A DNA stretch of 64,000 nucleotides from Aquabacterium humicola (GTDB lineage Bacteria; Pseudomonadota; Gammaproteobacteria; Burkholderiales; Burkholderiaceae_C). Positions 31,526 to 35,585 of the stretch are shown here, piece after piece. Each line of letters begins with the position of its first letter. Within the stretch, counting starts at the first letter, position 1. Made by a program: the position numbers and the translations under genes. The notes below the pieces were generated by a model. The model had not been told where the DNA came from and made no database searches. It saw nothing but the letters and a program-made list of their open reading frames with translations. The stretch lies in contig NZ_JARGNB010000003.1 in NCBI RefSeq assembly GCF_030167915.1, positions 372,001 to 436,000 of the forward strand, in the 5' to 3' direction.

Positions 31526-31948
31526 ATGCAACTCGTGTGTCCCGACTGTGGAACGAAGAACCGGGTGCCCGGCGAACGCCTGCACGACGACCCGCGCTGC
31601 GGCCGCTGCAGCGCCGCGCTGATGCCGGCGGCGCCGGTGACCTTGACGGACGCGTCCTTTGGGCCCTATGTCGACGGCACCGAGCTGCCGGTGCTGGTCG
31701 ACTTCTGGGCCGACTGGTGCGGCCCCTGCAAGATGATGGCGCCGCATTTCGCGGCCGCCGCGCAGCAGCTGCCCGACGTGCGTTTCGCCAAGCTCGATAC
31801 CGACGCCGCGCCGGCGACGAGCGCGCAATACGGCATCCGCAGCATTCCGACGCTGGCGCTGTTCCGCGGCGGGCGCGAGATCGCGCGCCAGAGCGGCGCG
31901 ATGGCCGCCGGCCAGCTCGTCGCCTGGGTGCGCTCGGCGCTGCGCTGA
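31526..31948 (+). CDS. trxC: Thioredoxin 2 (TrxC)
   Basis: A 140-residue thioredoxin with an N-terminal zinc-ribbon (CPDCG and CGRCS) followed by the thioredoxin domain with active site WADWCGPCKMM and the cis-Pro region IRSIPTLALF. TrxC reduces protein disulphides in the cytoplasm and is stress-linked. AAGGAG at 31514-31519 supports the start. It converges with the long dockerin protein gene. Confidence 0.92.
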   Translation: MQLVCPDCGTKNRVPGERLHDDPRCGRCSAALMPAAPVTLTDASFGPYVDGTELPVLVDFWADWCGPCKMMAPHFAAAAQQLPDVRFAKLDTDAAPATSAQYGIRSIPTLALFRGGREIARQSGAMAAGQLVAWVRSALR

Positions 31949-31998: not shown

Positions 31999-34900
31999 CT
32001 AGGGCGCGCACGCGGGCTTCGAGCAGATCCAGGTCAGGGCCTTGGCGTCGAGCGCGTTGACCACGCCGTCGGCATTGAGGTCCGCCTTCTCCAGCGTGGC
32101 GTCGTCGATTTCCTTGCCGATCAGCGCCATCAGCAGCGACAGGTCGGTGGAGTCGACGCGGCCGTCGCCGTTGAGGTCGCCGTAGTCGCCGACGCGGATC
32201 GTCACCGTCGCCTCCTCGCTGTCGACGACGCCGTCGGACGCCTTGTAGGTGAAGCCGATCTGGCCGCTGAAGCCGGCCGCCGGGAGGTAGACGAACGAAC
32301 CGTCGTTCGAGCGCGGCCAGGTCAGCGTGCCCTGCGCCGGGCCGATCCACAGGCGCGCCCGCACGGCGTTGTTGACCGTGTCCGCCGGGAACGGGCGGGC
32401 GTCGTTGGCGAGCACGCCGCCTACCGGCACCTTCAGCGGTGCGCCGGGGCGGGCACTGTAGAAGTCGCCCAGCGCCAGCGCCGGCGATGCGGTGCGCCGA
32501 TGGTCCAGCTCGTCGAGCAGCCCCTGCACGGCCGCGTGCAGCTCGGCGAAGTCGGCGCTGTCCAGCCCCTGGAAGGCCTGCACCAGCTCGGCGCGCAGCG
32601 CGCTGCGGCGTGCCTCGGTGCTGGCCTGCAGGGTCGCCGGCGGCACGCCTTCGCCGACCAGCCGCAGGATGTCATCGCCGCTCGGCAGGGCCTGCTCGCC
32701 GGCGATCAGCGCGTTGAGGTAGTCGGTCTCCGCCAGCGAGCGCGGCAGGCCCAGCGACATCGCCGCCTTCAGCAGCGCGTGGTAACCGCTCACCTGGCGG
32801 GCCAGCGGCGTGAGGTCCTGCCCCGGCACCGCCAGCGCGGCGAAGAGCTGGGCAGTGCGGCCGCCGTAGCCGTCGATGGCATGGAAGAGCACGCCGCGTC
32901 GCCCGGTCGCGGCATCGCCGGAGGCCAGGCTTTGCAGCGCGTCGCGCAGCACCGTGCCGGTGGCGACGACGGACGCCAGCGCCTGCGGGTTGTTGCGCTC
33001 GGTGCGCGCGGCATACCAGGGGTTCTCGCGCGCCAGCTGCACGTAGGCGTTGGCGCCGAGCAGCCAGACCTGCGGATTGGGCAGGCGCCCGCTGCCGCTG
33101 CAGCCCTCGGCCGGGCCGGCGCTGCCGAGCACGGCGTCCGCGTACTTCACGAGGAAGTCGACGTTCTCGTCCAGCGTGTGGCCCTTCTCGACGAGCTGCT
33201 CGTACAGCACCGCCGGGGTGTAGGCGCCGGCCGGCGGCGCGACGAACGTGGCGCTGCAGGGCACCTGGTCGGACCACGACCGGAACAGCACCTGGTAGGC
33301 ATCGAAGGCCGGCAGCGTCATCGTCAGGCCGGTGCGGGCCTTGTAGCCGAGCGCGGTGTCGTGCTCGACCAGGAAGGCCTGCAGCGCGGATTCCTGCAGG
33401 ATGGCCACGAGATGGCGCTCCAGGCTGCTGATGCGGTCCTCGATCGCGTACAGGTGGTTCTGGATCTCGCCGACCTTCTGCTGGATCGTCGCGGTGGCGA
33501 GCTCGAGCTTGCCGAGCTCGGTGTCGAGGTCGTGGTAGATGCCGGCGAGCACGCGGTCCATGCGGTCGTGGTGCAGCTTCAGCTCGGGCGGCACCGTGCG
33601 GATCTTCTGGCCCAGGCCCTTCACATGGCCGGCGATCGACGCATCCGGCGCCTGCTGCTTCGCATACAGCGAGAACAGCTCGGCCGCCGCCCCCAGCATC
33701 TGCCCGGCGTGTGCCGCGGCGGCCATGCGCGCGCTCGCCGGCGGCAGGTCGGGCGTCTTGCCGAGGTCGGCCACGCCCTGCGCATAGCCGATCGATGACT
33801 CGGCGGCGCGGTGATGGGCGCGCTTGAGCACGCCCACCTGCTTGGCCAGCTTGGGGTTGTCGACGGCCAGCGGCACGCCCAGCAGGTGCGTGGCCGCGCG
33901 CGCGGCGTCCAGCTTCTGGCGATGCACCAGGGCGGCCTGCTTCAGGCGGTCGCGCTGGGTCTTGCGCAGCGCGGCATTGCCCATGTAGGCCACCATGTCC
34001 GACTGCAGCGGCACCAGCGTGCCGATGTCGGCCTTCACGCCCTCGGGGATCTTCGCGACGTCCGTCATCTGGACCTTGATCGCGTTCACCGCCTGCGGCG
34101 CGCCGATCGTGAATCCGCCCTTGGCGTTGCGCATCGCGCGCACGTCCGCATTGGCCTCCAGCGCGGCGTTGTACGTCGGCCGCTGCTGTCGCGTGGCGGC
34201 TTCGCTCAGGCCCAGGTGCACGCCCAGGCTGCTGCCCACCGTCTGGTTGTAGGCCTGCACGAAGCGGCGGTCGCCGGACCGCTGCGCGAGCTTGTGGAAC
34301 TCGTCTTCCAGCGCCAGCGAGGCGTCGATCGGCGACAGCGGGCCGCGCTTGTGCTTCAGCGCGCGGCCGCCCTTGTCGAGCAGCGCTTCATCGACGGGCG
34401 GCAGCGCGGCGGCGACGGCCTTGTCGAGCAGCTTCTCGAGCGCCGGCCGGCCCTCGCGGCCCAGGGCCTGCGCGCCGGCCGAGACGGCGCGCATCAGCTT
34501 GCGCCCCAGCAGCTCGTCGCGTGGTGCGGCCTCGTCCCACTTCTGCTGCACCGCCGCCGCCATCGCGCCGGGATTGGCGCGCAGCGCCGGGCTGGTGTCC
34601 CACAGCGCGTTCAGCACCAGCGCCTTGGCATAGGCGGCGTGGTTGCGGTCTTCGCGAACCGCCCATGCCGAGGCGCCGGCAAACGTGGCCTGCGCGGCCT
34701 TGGCCGGCGGCACTTCGGCCGCCTGCGCCGGCGCCACCAGGCCGGCCGGCCACAGCAGCGCGCCCAGCAGCGCCGCGCGCACGCGGCCGGACGTCGCGGC
34801 GGCGCGGTGCGCGCGCCGCGACAGGGCCAGCGCGGCCAGCAGCGCGAGCGCCGCGAGCCCCGACGTCGGCGGCTCCGGCACCTGCAGCGTCAGCACGCCG

Positions 34901-35436
34901 GTCTGGACCGGCACCGGGTTGCCGGCGTCATCGGTGATCGGCAGCGCAAACGCATCGGCGAGGTCGAACTGCGAGATGACGAAGTTCTGCAGCGTGTGCG
35001 CGGGCTCGTCGCCGACCTGGAAGCCGAGCGTCGCGAGGATGAAGCTGTCCGACTGCAGCAGCGTCAGCGCGGCTTCGTCCAGCAGGCTGGTCTGCGCGAT
35101 GCGCAGCACGCCGGGCGTGCTGAAGTCCATGAAGCCGAAGGCCTCGCCCAATGCGGCATCGCCGAGCGCGCTGCCGAAGCCCGCGGGCGGCCCGGTGTCC
35201 AGCGCCGTCACGTCGCCGCCGTTGAAGCTGATCTCGAGGTCGAACGCGCCCACCACGGCGTCGAGCCCGGCGGTGCGCAGCCCGGAGATCTCGACCGTCA
35301 CGTAGAAGATCTCCCCGGCGGACAGGCGCTGCTTCGGCGAGACGAGGTCCAGGCTGATGAGCGGCGCCGCCGAAACGAAGCCGCTGCAGGCGGCCAGCGT
35401 CAGGAACGCCAGCCAACGGATCAGGAAGTACCGCAT
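31999..35436 (-). CDS. Large exported cohesin-like / PEP-CTERM / dockerin protein (apparent in-frame fusion)
   Basis: A 1145-residue open frame: signal peptide (residues 1-24), cohesin-like beta domain (~25-175; SAGEIFYVTVEISGLRTAGL), an internal PEP-CTERM-type tripartite signal at ~186-211 (VPEPPTSG, hydrophobic stretch, SRRAHR), a second signal-peptide-like stretch (~218-240; ALLWPAGLVAPAQA), a long helical region with a coiled coil near 650-690, a cadherin/VCBS-like domain (~985-1080) and a dockerin with DLNGDGRVDSTDL and DLNADGVVNALDA calcium loops. PEP-CTERM signals are normally terminal, so two ancestral genes may have fused; a GTG at 34782 could start the second. GGAGGA precedes the ATG; an FNR-like promoter lies upstream. 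Confidence 0.7.
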   Translation of the reverse strand: MRYFLIRWLAFLTLAACSGFVSAAPLISLDLVSPKQRLSAGEIFYVTVEISGLRTAGLDAVVGAFDLEISFNGGDVTALDTGPPAGFGSALGDAALGEAFGFMDFSTPGVLRIAQTSLLDEAALTLLQSDSFILATLGFQVGDEPAHTLQNFVISQFDLADAFALPITDDAGNPVPVQTGVLTLQVPEPPTSGLAALALLAALALSRRAHRAAATSGRVRAALLGALLWPAGLVAPAQAAEVPPAKAAQATFAGASAWAVREDRNHAAYAKALVLNALWDTSPALRANPGAMAAAVQQKWDEAAPRDELLGRKLMRAVSAGAQALGREGRPALEKLLDKAVAAALPPVDEALLDKGGRALKHKRGPLSPIDASLALEDEFHKLAQRSGDRRFVQAYNQTVGSSLGVHLGLSEAATRQQRPTYNAALEANADVRAMRNAKGGFTIGAPQAVNAIKVQMTDVAKIPEGVKADIGTLVPLQSDMVAYMGNAALRKTQRDRLKQAALVHRQKLDAARAATHLLGVPLAVDNPKLAKQVGVLKRAHHRAAESSIGYAQGVADLGKTPDLPPASARMAAAAHAGQMLGAAAELFSLYAKQQAPDASIAGHVKGLGQKIRTVPPELKLHHDRMDRVLAGIYHDLDTELGKLELATATIQQKVGEIQNHLYAIEDRISSLERHLVAILQESALQAFLVEHDTALGYKARTGLTMTLPAFDAYQVLFRSWSDQVPCSATFVAPPAGAYTPAVLYEQLVEKGHTLDENVDFLVKYADAVLGSAGPAEGCSGSGRLPNPQVWLLGANAYVQLARENPWYAARTERNNPQALASVVATGTVLRDALQSLASGDAATGRRGVLFHAIDGYGGRTAQLFAALAVPGQDLTPLARQVSGYHALLKAAMSLGLPRSLAETDYLNALIAGEQALPSGDDILRLVGEGVPPATLQASTEARRSALRAELVQAFQGLDSADFAELHAAVQGLLDELDHRRTASPALALGDFYSARPGAPLKVPVGGVLANDARPFPADTVNNAVRARLWIGPAQGTLTWPRSNDGSFVYLPAAGFSGQIGFTYKASDGVVDSEEATVTIRVGDYGDLNGDGRVDSTDLSLLMALIGKEIDDATLEKADLNADGVVNALDAKALTWICSKPACAP

Positions 35437-35541: not shown

Positions 35542-35585
35542 TCGCCGGCCGCAGAGGGCCTGCAACGTGCGGGCCAGGCCCTGCG

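Follow-up and report, generated by a model that had tools for sequence, protein, structure and literature searches.

A Cohesin, an Internal PEP-CTERM-Like Tag, a Second Signal Peptide, and a Dockerin in One Reading Frame of Aquabacterium humicola: a Candidate Surface Polyprotein

A PEP-CTERM sorting tag normally forms the very C terminus of a protein. What, then, is to be made of a reading frame in which such a tag stands in the middle? The open reading frame (ORF) in question lies on the minus strand of a 64,000-nucleotide stretch of Aquabacterium humicola DNA (contig NZ_JARGNB010000003.1, positions 372,001 to 436,000), which we call the window. It joins a cohesin-like domain and a PEP-CTERM-like tag to a second signal peptide, a long cargo region, a cadherin-like domain, and a dockerin. 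Judged from sequence and gene neighborhood, the ORF is best read as a fusion of what is elsewhere a widespread pair of genes, one for a PEP-CTERM cohesin and its neighbor for a secreted cargo bearing a dockerin. We give slightly better than an even chance to the proposal that its product is a two-signal polyprotein, which an exosortase and a signal peptidase would cut into two proteins, the cohesin, which would be anchored, and the dockerin protein that would pair with it.

According to this proposal, a single chain would be made from the whole ORF, and the first signal peptide would start the export of the cohesin. The helix of the PEP-CTERM-like tag, oriented with its N terminus out and its C terminus in, would halt export and leave the basic loop on the inner side; the second hydrophobic stretch, with its N terminus in and its C terminus out, would re-enter the membrane and restart export. 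Signal peptidase I would cleave after APAQA and free the cargo (signal peptidase II would do so at L195, a locus described below), and exosortase would cleave at or near the PEP motif and anchor the cohesin, to which the dockerin would then dock at the cell surface. The fusion would supply both partners in equal numbers at one site.

One Reading Frame from Cohesin to Dockerin

The ORF runs for 1,145 amino acids from an ATG at 35436, which has a ribosome-binding-site-like GGAGG upstream, to a stop codon at 31999 to 32001, with no stop inside. Its translation and its Pfam matches agree with the order of parts described in an earlier sequence-only reading of this DNA. At the C-terminal end, residues 987 to 1080 match Big_9 with 40.0 bits (cut-off, 23.6), Cadherin_5 also scores above its cut-off (28.7 versus 26.5 bits), and residues 1085 to 1134 match Dockerin_1 with 45.2 bits (cut-off, 22.9). 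Both calcium-loop repeats of the dockerin are legible in the translation (DLNGDGRVDSTD and DLNADGVVNALD), as in a type I dockerin, and its Cys-containing tail is common to the other dockerins of the loci considered below, whose shared end is close to CxLxCTRPxCA. The G+C content of third codon positions (GC3) is 0.88 to 1.00 across all 60-codon windows of the ORF and 0.98 at the junction between tag and second signal. With GC3 continuous and the frame intact across 1,145 codons, a frameshift or a missed stop near the junction was rejected.

By profile and predicted fold, and with the caveats that follow, the N-terminal domain appears to be a cohesin. The window protein is absent from the matches to Pfam Cohesin at E values of ≤1. 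When a family profile of 20 sequences, the window's included, was compared with the PDB, scaffoldin cohesins ranked at the top, and 3l8q (E = 1.5e-5) was the sole match below 0.001. The AlphaFold model of the domain is of modest to low confidence (pLDDT, 61.7). Foldseek with this model returned cohesin entries at all of ranks 1 to 10, with an E value of ≤0.001 for rank 1 alone, and VIA-align returned cohesin entries in all of rows 1 to 34, at Z scores of 7.8 to 6.0, a range lying entirely below 8, where a match can mean merely a common arrangement. Among relatives, L149 exceeds the Pfam Cohesin cut-off of 24.1 with 31.3 bits, and L086 (20.7), L042 (16.2), and L094 (13.9) score below it.

The cargo, residues 240 to 985, had been described as a long helical part, and the PDB search gave weak coiled-coil-like matches alone (E ≥ 0.15). 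No convincing homolog of it was found in an exact-peptide scan of genome contigs, in a search of 60 relatives with the whole protein (at most 12 best candidates scored per genome), or when the cargo by itself was run against 198 family genomes (up to 5 candidates scored in each); these searches gave four weak matches, with E values of 0.001 to 0.007.

Cohesin and Dockerin Genes as Neighbors, and Their Fused Forms

If the ORF is a fusion, its halves might be expected elsewhere as adjacent genes. Searches spanned relatives, the genus, the family, the order, a scan of named genomes, and retrieved neighborhoods, and 52 distinct full-length cohesin/PEP-CTERM genes form the set used for counts and for the tree. 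L100, a partial cohesin match in whose region no dockerin was found, was left out of the 52, and weak tag-only matches were mostly left out, apart from L100 and 13 such loci kept as controls. All numbers of genomes and genes are minimum values, only the best candidates being scored in each genome.

A dockerin-tail stretch lies on the same strand within 3.4 kb of the cohesin/PEP-CTERM gene in 45 of the 52 cases. In 30 of the 52 it belongs to a gene that ends less than 150 bp upstream of the cohesin gene (two of these 30 matches are weak, at 20.4 and 21.1 bits), in 14 it lies downstream, and in one, the window, it is inside the same ORF. The 13 control loci, which match the tag only, gave no dockerin-tail match in the 13 kb taken from each. 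Gene neighborhood thus indicates that cohesin/PEP-CTERM genes belong with dockerin genes as a widespread two-gene module, and the same context supports the predicted pairing of the two parts, which the sequence-only reading had raised as a possibility. The cargos of the module vary between loci: L043 has a GDSL lipase, L044 has a protein with a region, read by eye, that we take to be DNRLRE-like, L042 has a very weak beta-propeller match, and further kinds exist beyond these. The window genome itself (G000) holds at least three unfused cohesin/dockerin neighbor pairs besides the window ORF (Table 1).

A maximum-likelihood tree built from the 52 cohesins places the cohesin of L043, from another family of the order, as sister to that of the window (support, 98/83). 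There the cohesin/PEP-CTERM protein and the dockerin-bearing lipase are encoded by separate adjacent genes, in the same order as in the window. The halves were therefore found as neighboring genes, as had been suggested as a check, and the unfused sister lends support to the earlier idea that two adjacent genes were fused by loss of a stop.

The window is not the sole fused form. Twelve fused rows require at least three changes of state on the tree, all forced by well-supported branches, and they fall in three places: the window, a clade of nine rows, and a pair of paralogs in genome G445. That the downstream partners differ speaks for independent fusions. The nine-row clade (L122 to L130) comprises Paucibacter, Roseateles, Pelomonas, Massilia, Rugamonas, and an unclassified Burkholderiales genome, and all nine members have a signal peptide, cohesin, tag, basic loop, second signal, and small domain in one frame. 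The tag motif is VPEP in seven of the nine and AAEP and VSEP in the remaining two. A dockerin-tail match (29.6 to 51.8 bits) lies about 3 kb downstream in 9/9 loci, and in the three loci read (L089, L093, and L094) a hydrolase-like gene, with weak Pfam matches below cut-off, stands between the fused gene and the dockerin. A profile of tag plus tail, run against 399 family genomes, matched five, each over nearly the full profile in one open frame. The small fused domain of the Roseateles clade is predicted to be all-beta and OB-like (pLDDT, 83.7); assignment to the OB fold was dropped, the best Foldseek E value of 0.012 being too weak.

The paralogs of G445 continue past the junction into a region that looks by eye like vWA, with a DESQS motif, for which Pfam gave no match. 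On contigs C31, C35, and C98 (L149, L150, and L161), the two paralogs are broken at an identical repeat. A contig overlapping these ends carries a dockerin-like stretch (21.4 bits, slightly short of the 22.9 cut-off) together with Big_9, PKD, and 23 RHS repeat stretches. If the contigs connect, G445 would be a second case of a cohesin-to-dockerin chain with the same junction.

The sequence-only reading had held that homologs conserving the full-length fusion with the same internal segment would speak against its proposal. None was found for the window ORF in the genomes searched, and in other families such conservation exists. Because the architecture is conserved in those families, the fusion looks, from these comparisons, more like a recurring design than an accident.

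Table 1 Features of the window ORF and related loci
Feature	Coordinates	Strand	Basis or remark
Whole ORF	31999..35436	-	First signal peptide, cohesin, PEP-CTERM-like tag, second signal, cargo, Big_9, dockerin
First signal peptide, residues 1-23 (..GFVSA)	35368..35436	-	Read from translation
Cohesin-like domain, residues 26-185 (about)	34882..35361	-	PDB cohesin profile, predicted fold, relatives
Internal PEP-CTERM-like tag, residues 186-211: VPEPP, hydrophobic helix, RRAHR	34804..34881	-	Layout; Pfam score below cut-off
Basic loop RRAHRAAATSGRVRA, +5, acidic 0, predicted cytoplasmic	34774..34818	-	Topology inferred
Second signal peptide, residues 219-239, predicted cut APAQA/AE	34720..34782	-	Site chosen by eye
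Cargo region, residues 240-985, no convincing homolog	32482..34719	-	Genome and PDB searches
Big_9/cadherin-like domain, residues 987-1080	32197..32478	-	Pfam, 40.0 bits
Dockerin type I, residues 1085-1134, and Cys-containing tail WICSKPACAP	32002..32184	-	Pfam, 45.2 bits
Possible sigma-54-like site TGGCCCGCACGTTGCA, about 140 nucleotides upstream of ATG	35561..35576	-	Weak
Unfused pair L087/L197	G000:C34, 515 kb		
Unfused pair L044	G000:C23, 166 kb		
Unfused pair L091	G000:C1, 1037 kb		

Internal Tags Followed by a Second Signal

The tag of the window has VPEPP at residues 186 to 190, a hydrophobic stretch, and RR at residues 207 and 208, which is the tripartite pattern of PEP-CTERM. In the relevant passage of Haft 2006 (PMC1569441), 87% of such tags have fewer than 10 further residues, and it is suggested that the rare tags with long tails might be non-functional. 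Among 150 distinct PEP-CTERM-like matches in the DNA that we retrieved, a non-random sample of loci, the frame ends no more than 45 residues from the motif in 138 and continues in 12.

What follows the tag in the long forms resembles a signal peptide. In the window, the second signal has a basic n-region (GRVR), a Kyte-Doolittle hydropathy of 1.94, and AQA/AE at its end, as in substrates of signal peptidase I. All 12 cohesin junctions show a first helix, a basic loop (net charge of +2 to +7, with 0 to 1 acidic residues), a second helix, and [AS]xA at cut sites chosen by eye. A signal-like stretch is present in 11/11 tails longer than 100 residues and in 12/136 stretches of DNA read on behind ordinary stops, a count that is biased and indicative at best, since most of the tails were found through queries containing the second signal and several are related. 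A general profile of the junction returned mainly ordinary, stop-terminated tags; among the 21 matches listed that cover at least 44 of its 54 positions, tallied by eye, 5 have no stop, namely, four known fusions and L194. The window genome also encodes two exosortases (PF09721, 232.7 and 224.3 bits), so that the enzyme whose presence had been proposed as a check is available in two copies.

Internal tags are not confined to cohesins. With TIGR02595, 12 tags of the window genome pass an E value of 1e-3; ten of them end 23 to 31 residues past the motif, and L195 and L196 run on. L195 (3517 to 6948, G000:C23, about 337 kb), the best TIGR02595 match of the genome, continues with RRRR, a signal of the lipoprotein type (ITAGC), and about 800 residues for which Pfam gave no match. 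L196 (6745 to 10104, G000:C1, about 1300 kb) continues with RRR and an LPAAA/QID signal into a pectate lyase with a pectinesterase domain. In a genus sample of 37 high-scoring tag loci, some of them near identical and eight from the window genome, L195 alone runs on, and the other 36 stop after 36 residues or fewer. Among 17 further frames chosen for their length, one more continues: L247 (3161 to 5695, minus strand, G007:C3) has, within one frame, a tag, a second signal, a match to choice-of-anchor X, and a subtilase. L194 (1886 to 3763, minus strand, G159:C64) consists of two PEP-CTERM proteins in one frame, linked by a second signal. The internal tags of L194, L195, L196, and L247 all score above the Pfam cut-off. 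L195, L196, and L247 were found without a second signal in the query and all three carry one, whereas the remaining fused cases were reached through queries that included a second signal or through relatedness to the window cohesin.

This raises a broader possibility, on which we are evenly divided, that an internal PEP-CTERM tag followed by a second signal, of type I or of the lipoprotein type, serves repeatedly in Burkholderiales as a processing cassette that, through cuts by exosortase and signal peptidase, yields two surface proteins from one exported chain. The cohesin version would be an exosortase-anchored cohesin/dockerin docking system serving many cargos. The roles of PEP-CTERM proteins are poorly known, and a tagged cohesin with a dockerin partner encoded next to it or joined to it suggests one concrete role, that of a surface post at which enzymes and adhesins dock. 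If the proposal is true, long-tailed PEP-CTERM proteins include working polyproteins, the second signal offers another interpretation of the minority that in 2006 was regarded as potentially non-functional, and the fusion is a natural means of delivering two surface proteins at a 1:1 ratio. The junction of tag and second signal would also make it directly testable whether exosortases need a free C terminus.

One Chain or Two Proteins, and Known Systems

Several points count against the two-signal polyprotein. Judged by curated scores, the tag falls slightly short: PF07589 gives 19.6 bits over residues 185 to 208, under the cut-off of 20.7, and the tag is unlisted at E values of ≤1 with TIGR02595 (NCBIfam; cut-off, 16). 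It was therefore judged on its layout of VPEPP, hydrophobic core, and RRAHR. Because position, with 934 residues following residue 211, and score both fall short, we do not class the window protein as a standard PEP-CTERM member but propose that it acts like one. Signal peptides were judged by eye, motif, and hydropathy only. Two of the 52 cohesin genes have a dockerin on the opposite strand alone, and for five no dockerin was seen in the region, two of these (L149 and L150) lying at contig ends. No fused ortholog of the window ORF was found among the relatives and family genomes searched and, with its orphan cargo, the window fusion could be young; the three changes on the tree might instead reflect a single gain followed by two losses. 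Both cleavages and the binding of cohesin to dockerin are what we infer from sequence. Finally, a usable in-frame start codon (ATG, GTG, or TTG, counted from the first basic residue that follows helix 1 up to 15 residues ahead of the cut) is present in 10 of 16 junctions, including that of the window.

The last point leads to the other origin that the sequence-only reading had allowed for the second half, namely, initiation at GTG 34782, so that two proteins would be made from genes overlapping in frame, the first of which lacks its stop. The position of this codon was confirmed exactly: it is the sole in-frame start able to serve the second signal of the window, and it sits precisely at the start of that signal, 21 residues before the cut. 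Similarly placed starts are the ATG codons of L125 and L149 and the GTG codons of L124 and L247. Initiation there nevertheless fared less well than its placement, for no Shine-Dalgarno-like sequence precedes the window GTG, ribosomes from the upstream ATG would still produce the full chain, and 6 of the 16 junctions (L126, L127, L129, L194, L195, and L196) have no usable start. In those six, one chain must therefore cross the membrane twice. We regard internal initiation in the window as quite unlikely.

The same topology would arise if the tag helix and the second signal formed an uncut hairpin, a two-helix anchor in the inner membrane from which cohesin and dockerin clasp each other intramolecularly in the periplasm. 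The subthreshold Pfam score of the window tag and the suggestion of Haft 2006 that long-tailed tags may be non-functional favor it, yet an uncut anchor would need neither VPEP, kept in seven of nine loci of the Roseateles/Massilia clade, nor [AS]xA, present (at sites chosen by eye) in 12/12 junctions, and L195 has the lipobox-like ITAGC at the corresponding place; we hold the hairpin to be somewhat unlikely. The remark of Haft 2006, the absence of any fused ortholog from the genomes searched, and the unfused sister L043 would equally fit an accident, that is, a recent stop loss, a misassembly, or a decaying gene whose fusion is not under selection. Such an accident is hard to reconcile with GC3 and a frame kept intact over the whole length, with a junction type that recurs at three places in the cohesin tree and, in one of its clades, has been kept across genera, or with the biased count of signal-like stretches in 11/11 long tails versus 12/136 controls, and we think it improbable. 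It is also unlikely that the cohesin and dockerin of the ORF bind partners encoded elsewhere rather than each other: the genome offers at least three more cohesin/dockerin pairs as such partners, at C23:166 kb, C34:515 kb, and C1:1037 kb, but neighboring genes pair consistently (45/52).

The two-signal polyprotein has likenesses to several known systems. Cohesin-dockerin pairs are reported (Peer 2009) both from cellulosomes and from outside them; the window shares with known pairs the cohesin fold and the type I dockerin, and the window and its module differ from them in the PEP-CTERM anchor, in the single cohesin, in partners that are adjacent or on the same chain, and in their occurrence in Burkholderiales. 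FbcH of Bradyrhizobium is a cytochrome b/c1 polyprotein cut at an internal signal peptide; it is likewise a bacterial polyprotein with such a signal, but it is a respiratory enzyme without a sorting tag. An ArtA substrate reportedly described by Abdul Halim in 2017 is said to carry its tripartite structure away from the C terminus; it is alike in that an exosortase-related enzyme acts on an internal tripartite tag and unlike in being archaeal, of the PGF type, and a Tat substrate. The family NF058595, named "lipo-invert putative C-terminal anchoring domain," matches weakly over the tag and the next helix in L195 (19.3 bits) and L127 (14.0 bits), both below its cut-off of 37, and the window is unlisted; no paper using the term "lipo-invert" was found in the literature searched.

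With the PEP-CTERM/exosortase (EpsH) system as set out in the relevant passage of Haft 2006 (PMC1569441), the ORF shares the VPEP motif, the helix, the basic cluster, the N-terminal signal peptide, and the exosortases of its genome; it differs in the internal position and borderline score of its tag. The closest precedent concerns another tag. MXAN_5598 of Myxococcus xanthus has an internal MYXO-CTERM and is possibly two fused genes, and the myxosortase paper that discusses it proposes processing and anchoring for its N-terminal portion (PMC11980579). Like the window ORF, it has a sorting tag in mid-chain in a putative two-gene fusion; unlike it, MXAN_5598 belongs with another family of tag and protease and ends in an outer-membrane barrel with OmpA domains, and the passage concerned mentions neither cohesin nor dockerin. 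It provides a precedent for sorting tags that work inside a chain, and its discussion cites an LPXTG case and an ArtA case. Exosortase and dockerin co-occur in a paper on methanotrophic archaea, in the relevant part of which they are treated separately. In the literature searched, from which subscription papers are mostly absent, no paper was found that joins PEP-CTERM with dockerin, with dockerin and cohesin together, or with a polyprotein. Internal sorting tags are already described in other systems, and no account of an exosortase-anchored cohesin/dockerin docking system was found within that same scope.

Two further features of the window lie beside the ORF. Upstream of its ATG is the possible sigma-54-like site of Table 1. 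The pattern, picked after the site had been seen, occurs once versus 0.03 expected, and a more standard sigma-54 pattern with one mismatch gave 2 matches versus 2.19 expected, which is no excess. The site is absent from 14 of 17 upstream regions, and a third match, at L044, fits poorly. Control of the module by sigma-54 was not upheld on these grounds. Near-identical sites, TGGC(C/A)CGCACGTTGC, are present in the window and at L041, there about 129 nucleotides upstream of a dockerin ORF. On the other side, at 31526 to 31948 on the plus strand and convergent with the fusion ORF, lies an ORF that is thioredoxin-like by its translation (WCGPCK), with an N-terminal four-cysteine stretch resembling a zinc ribbon.

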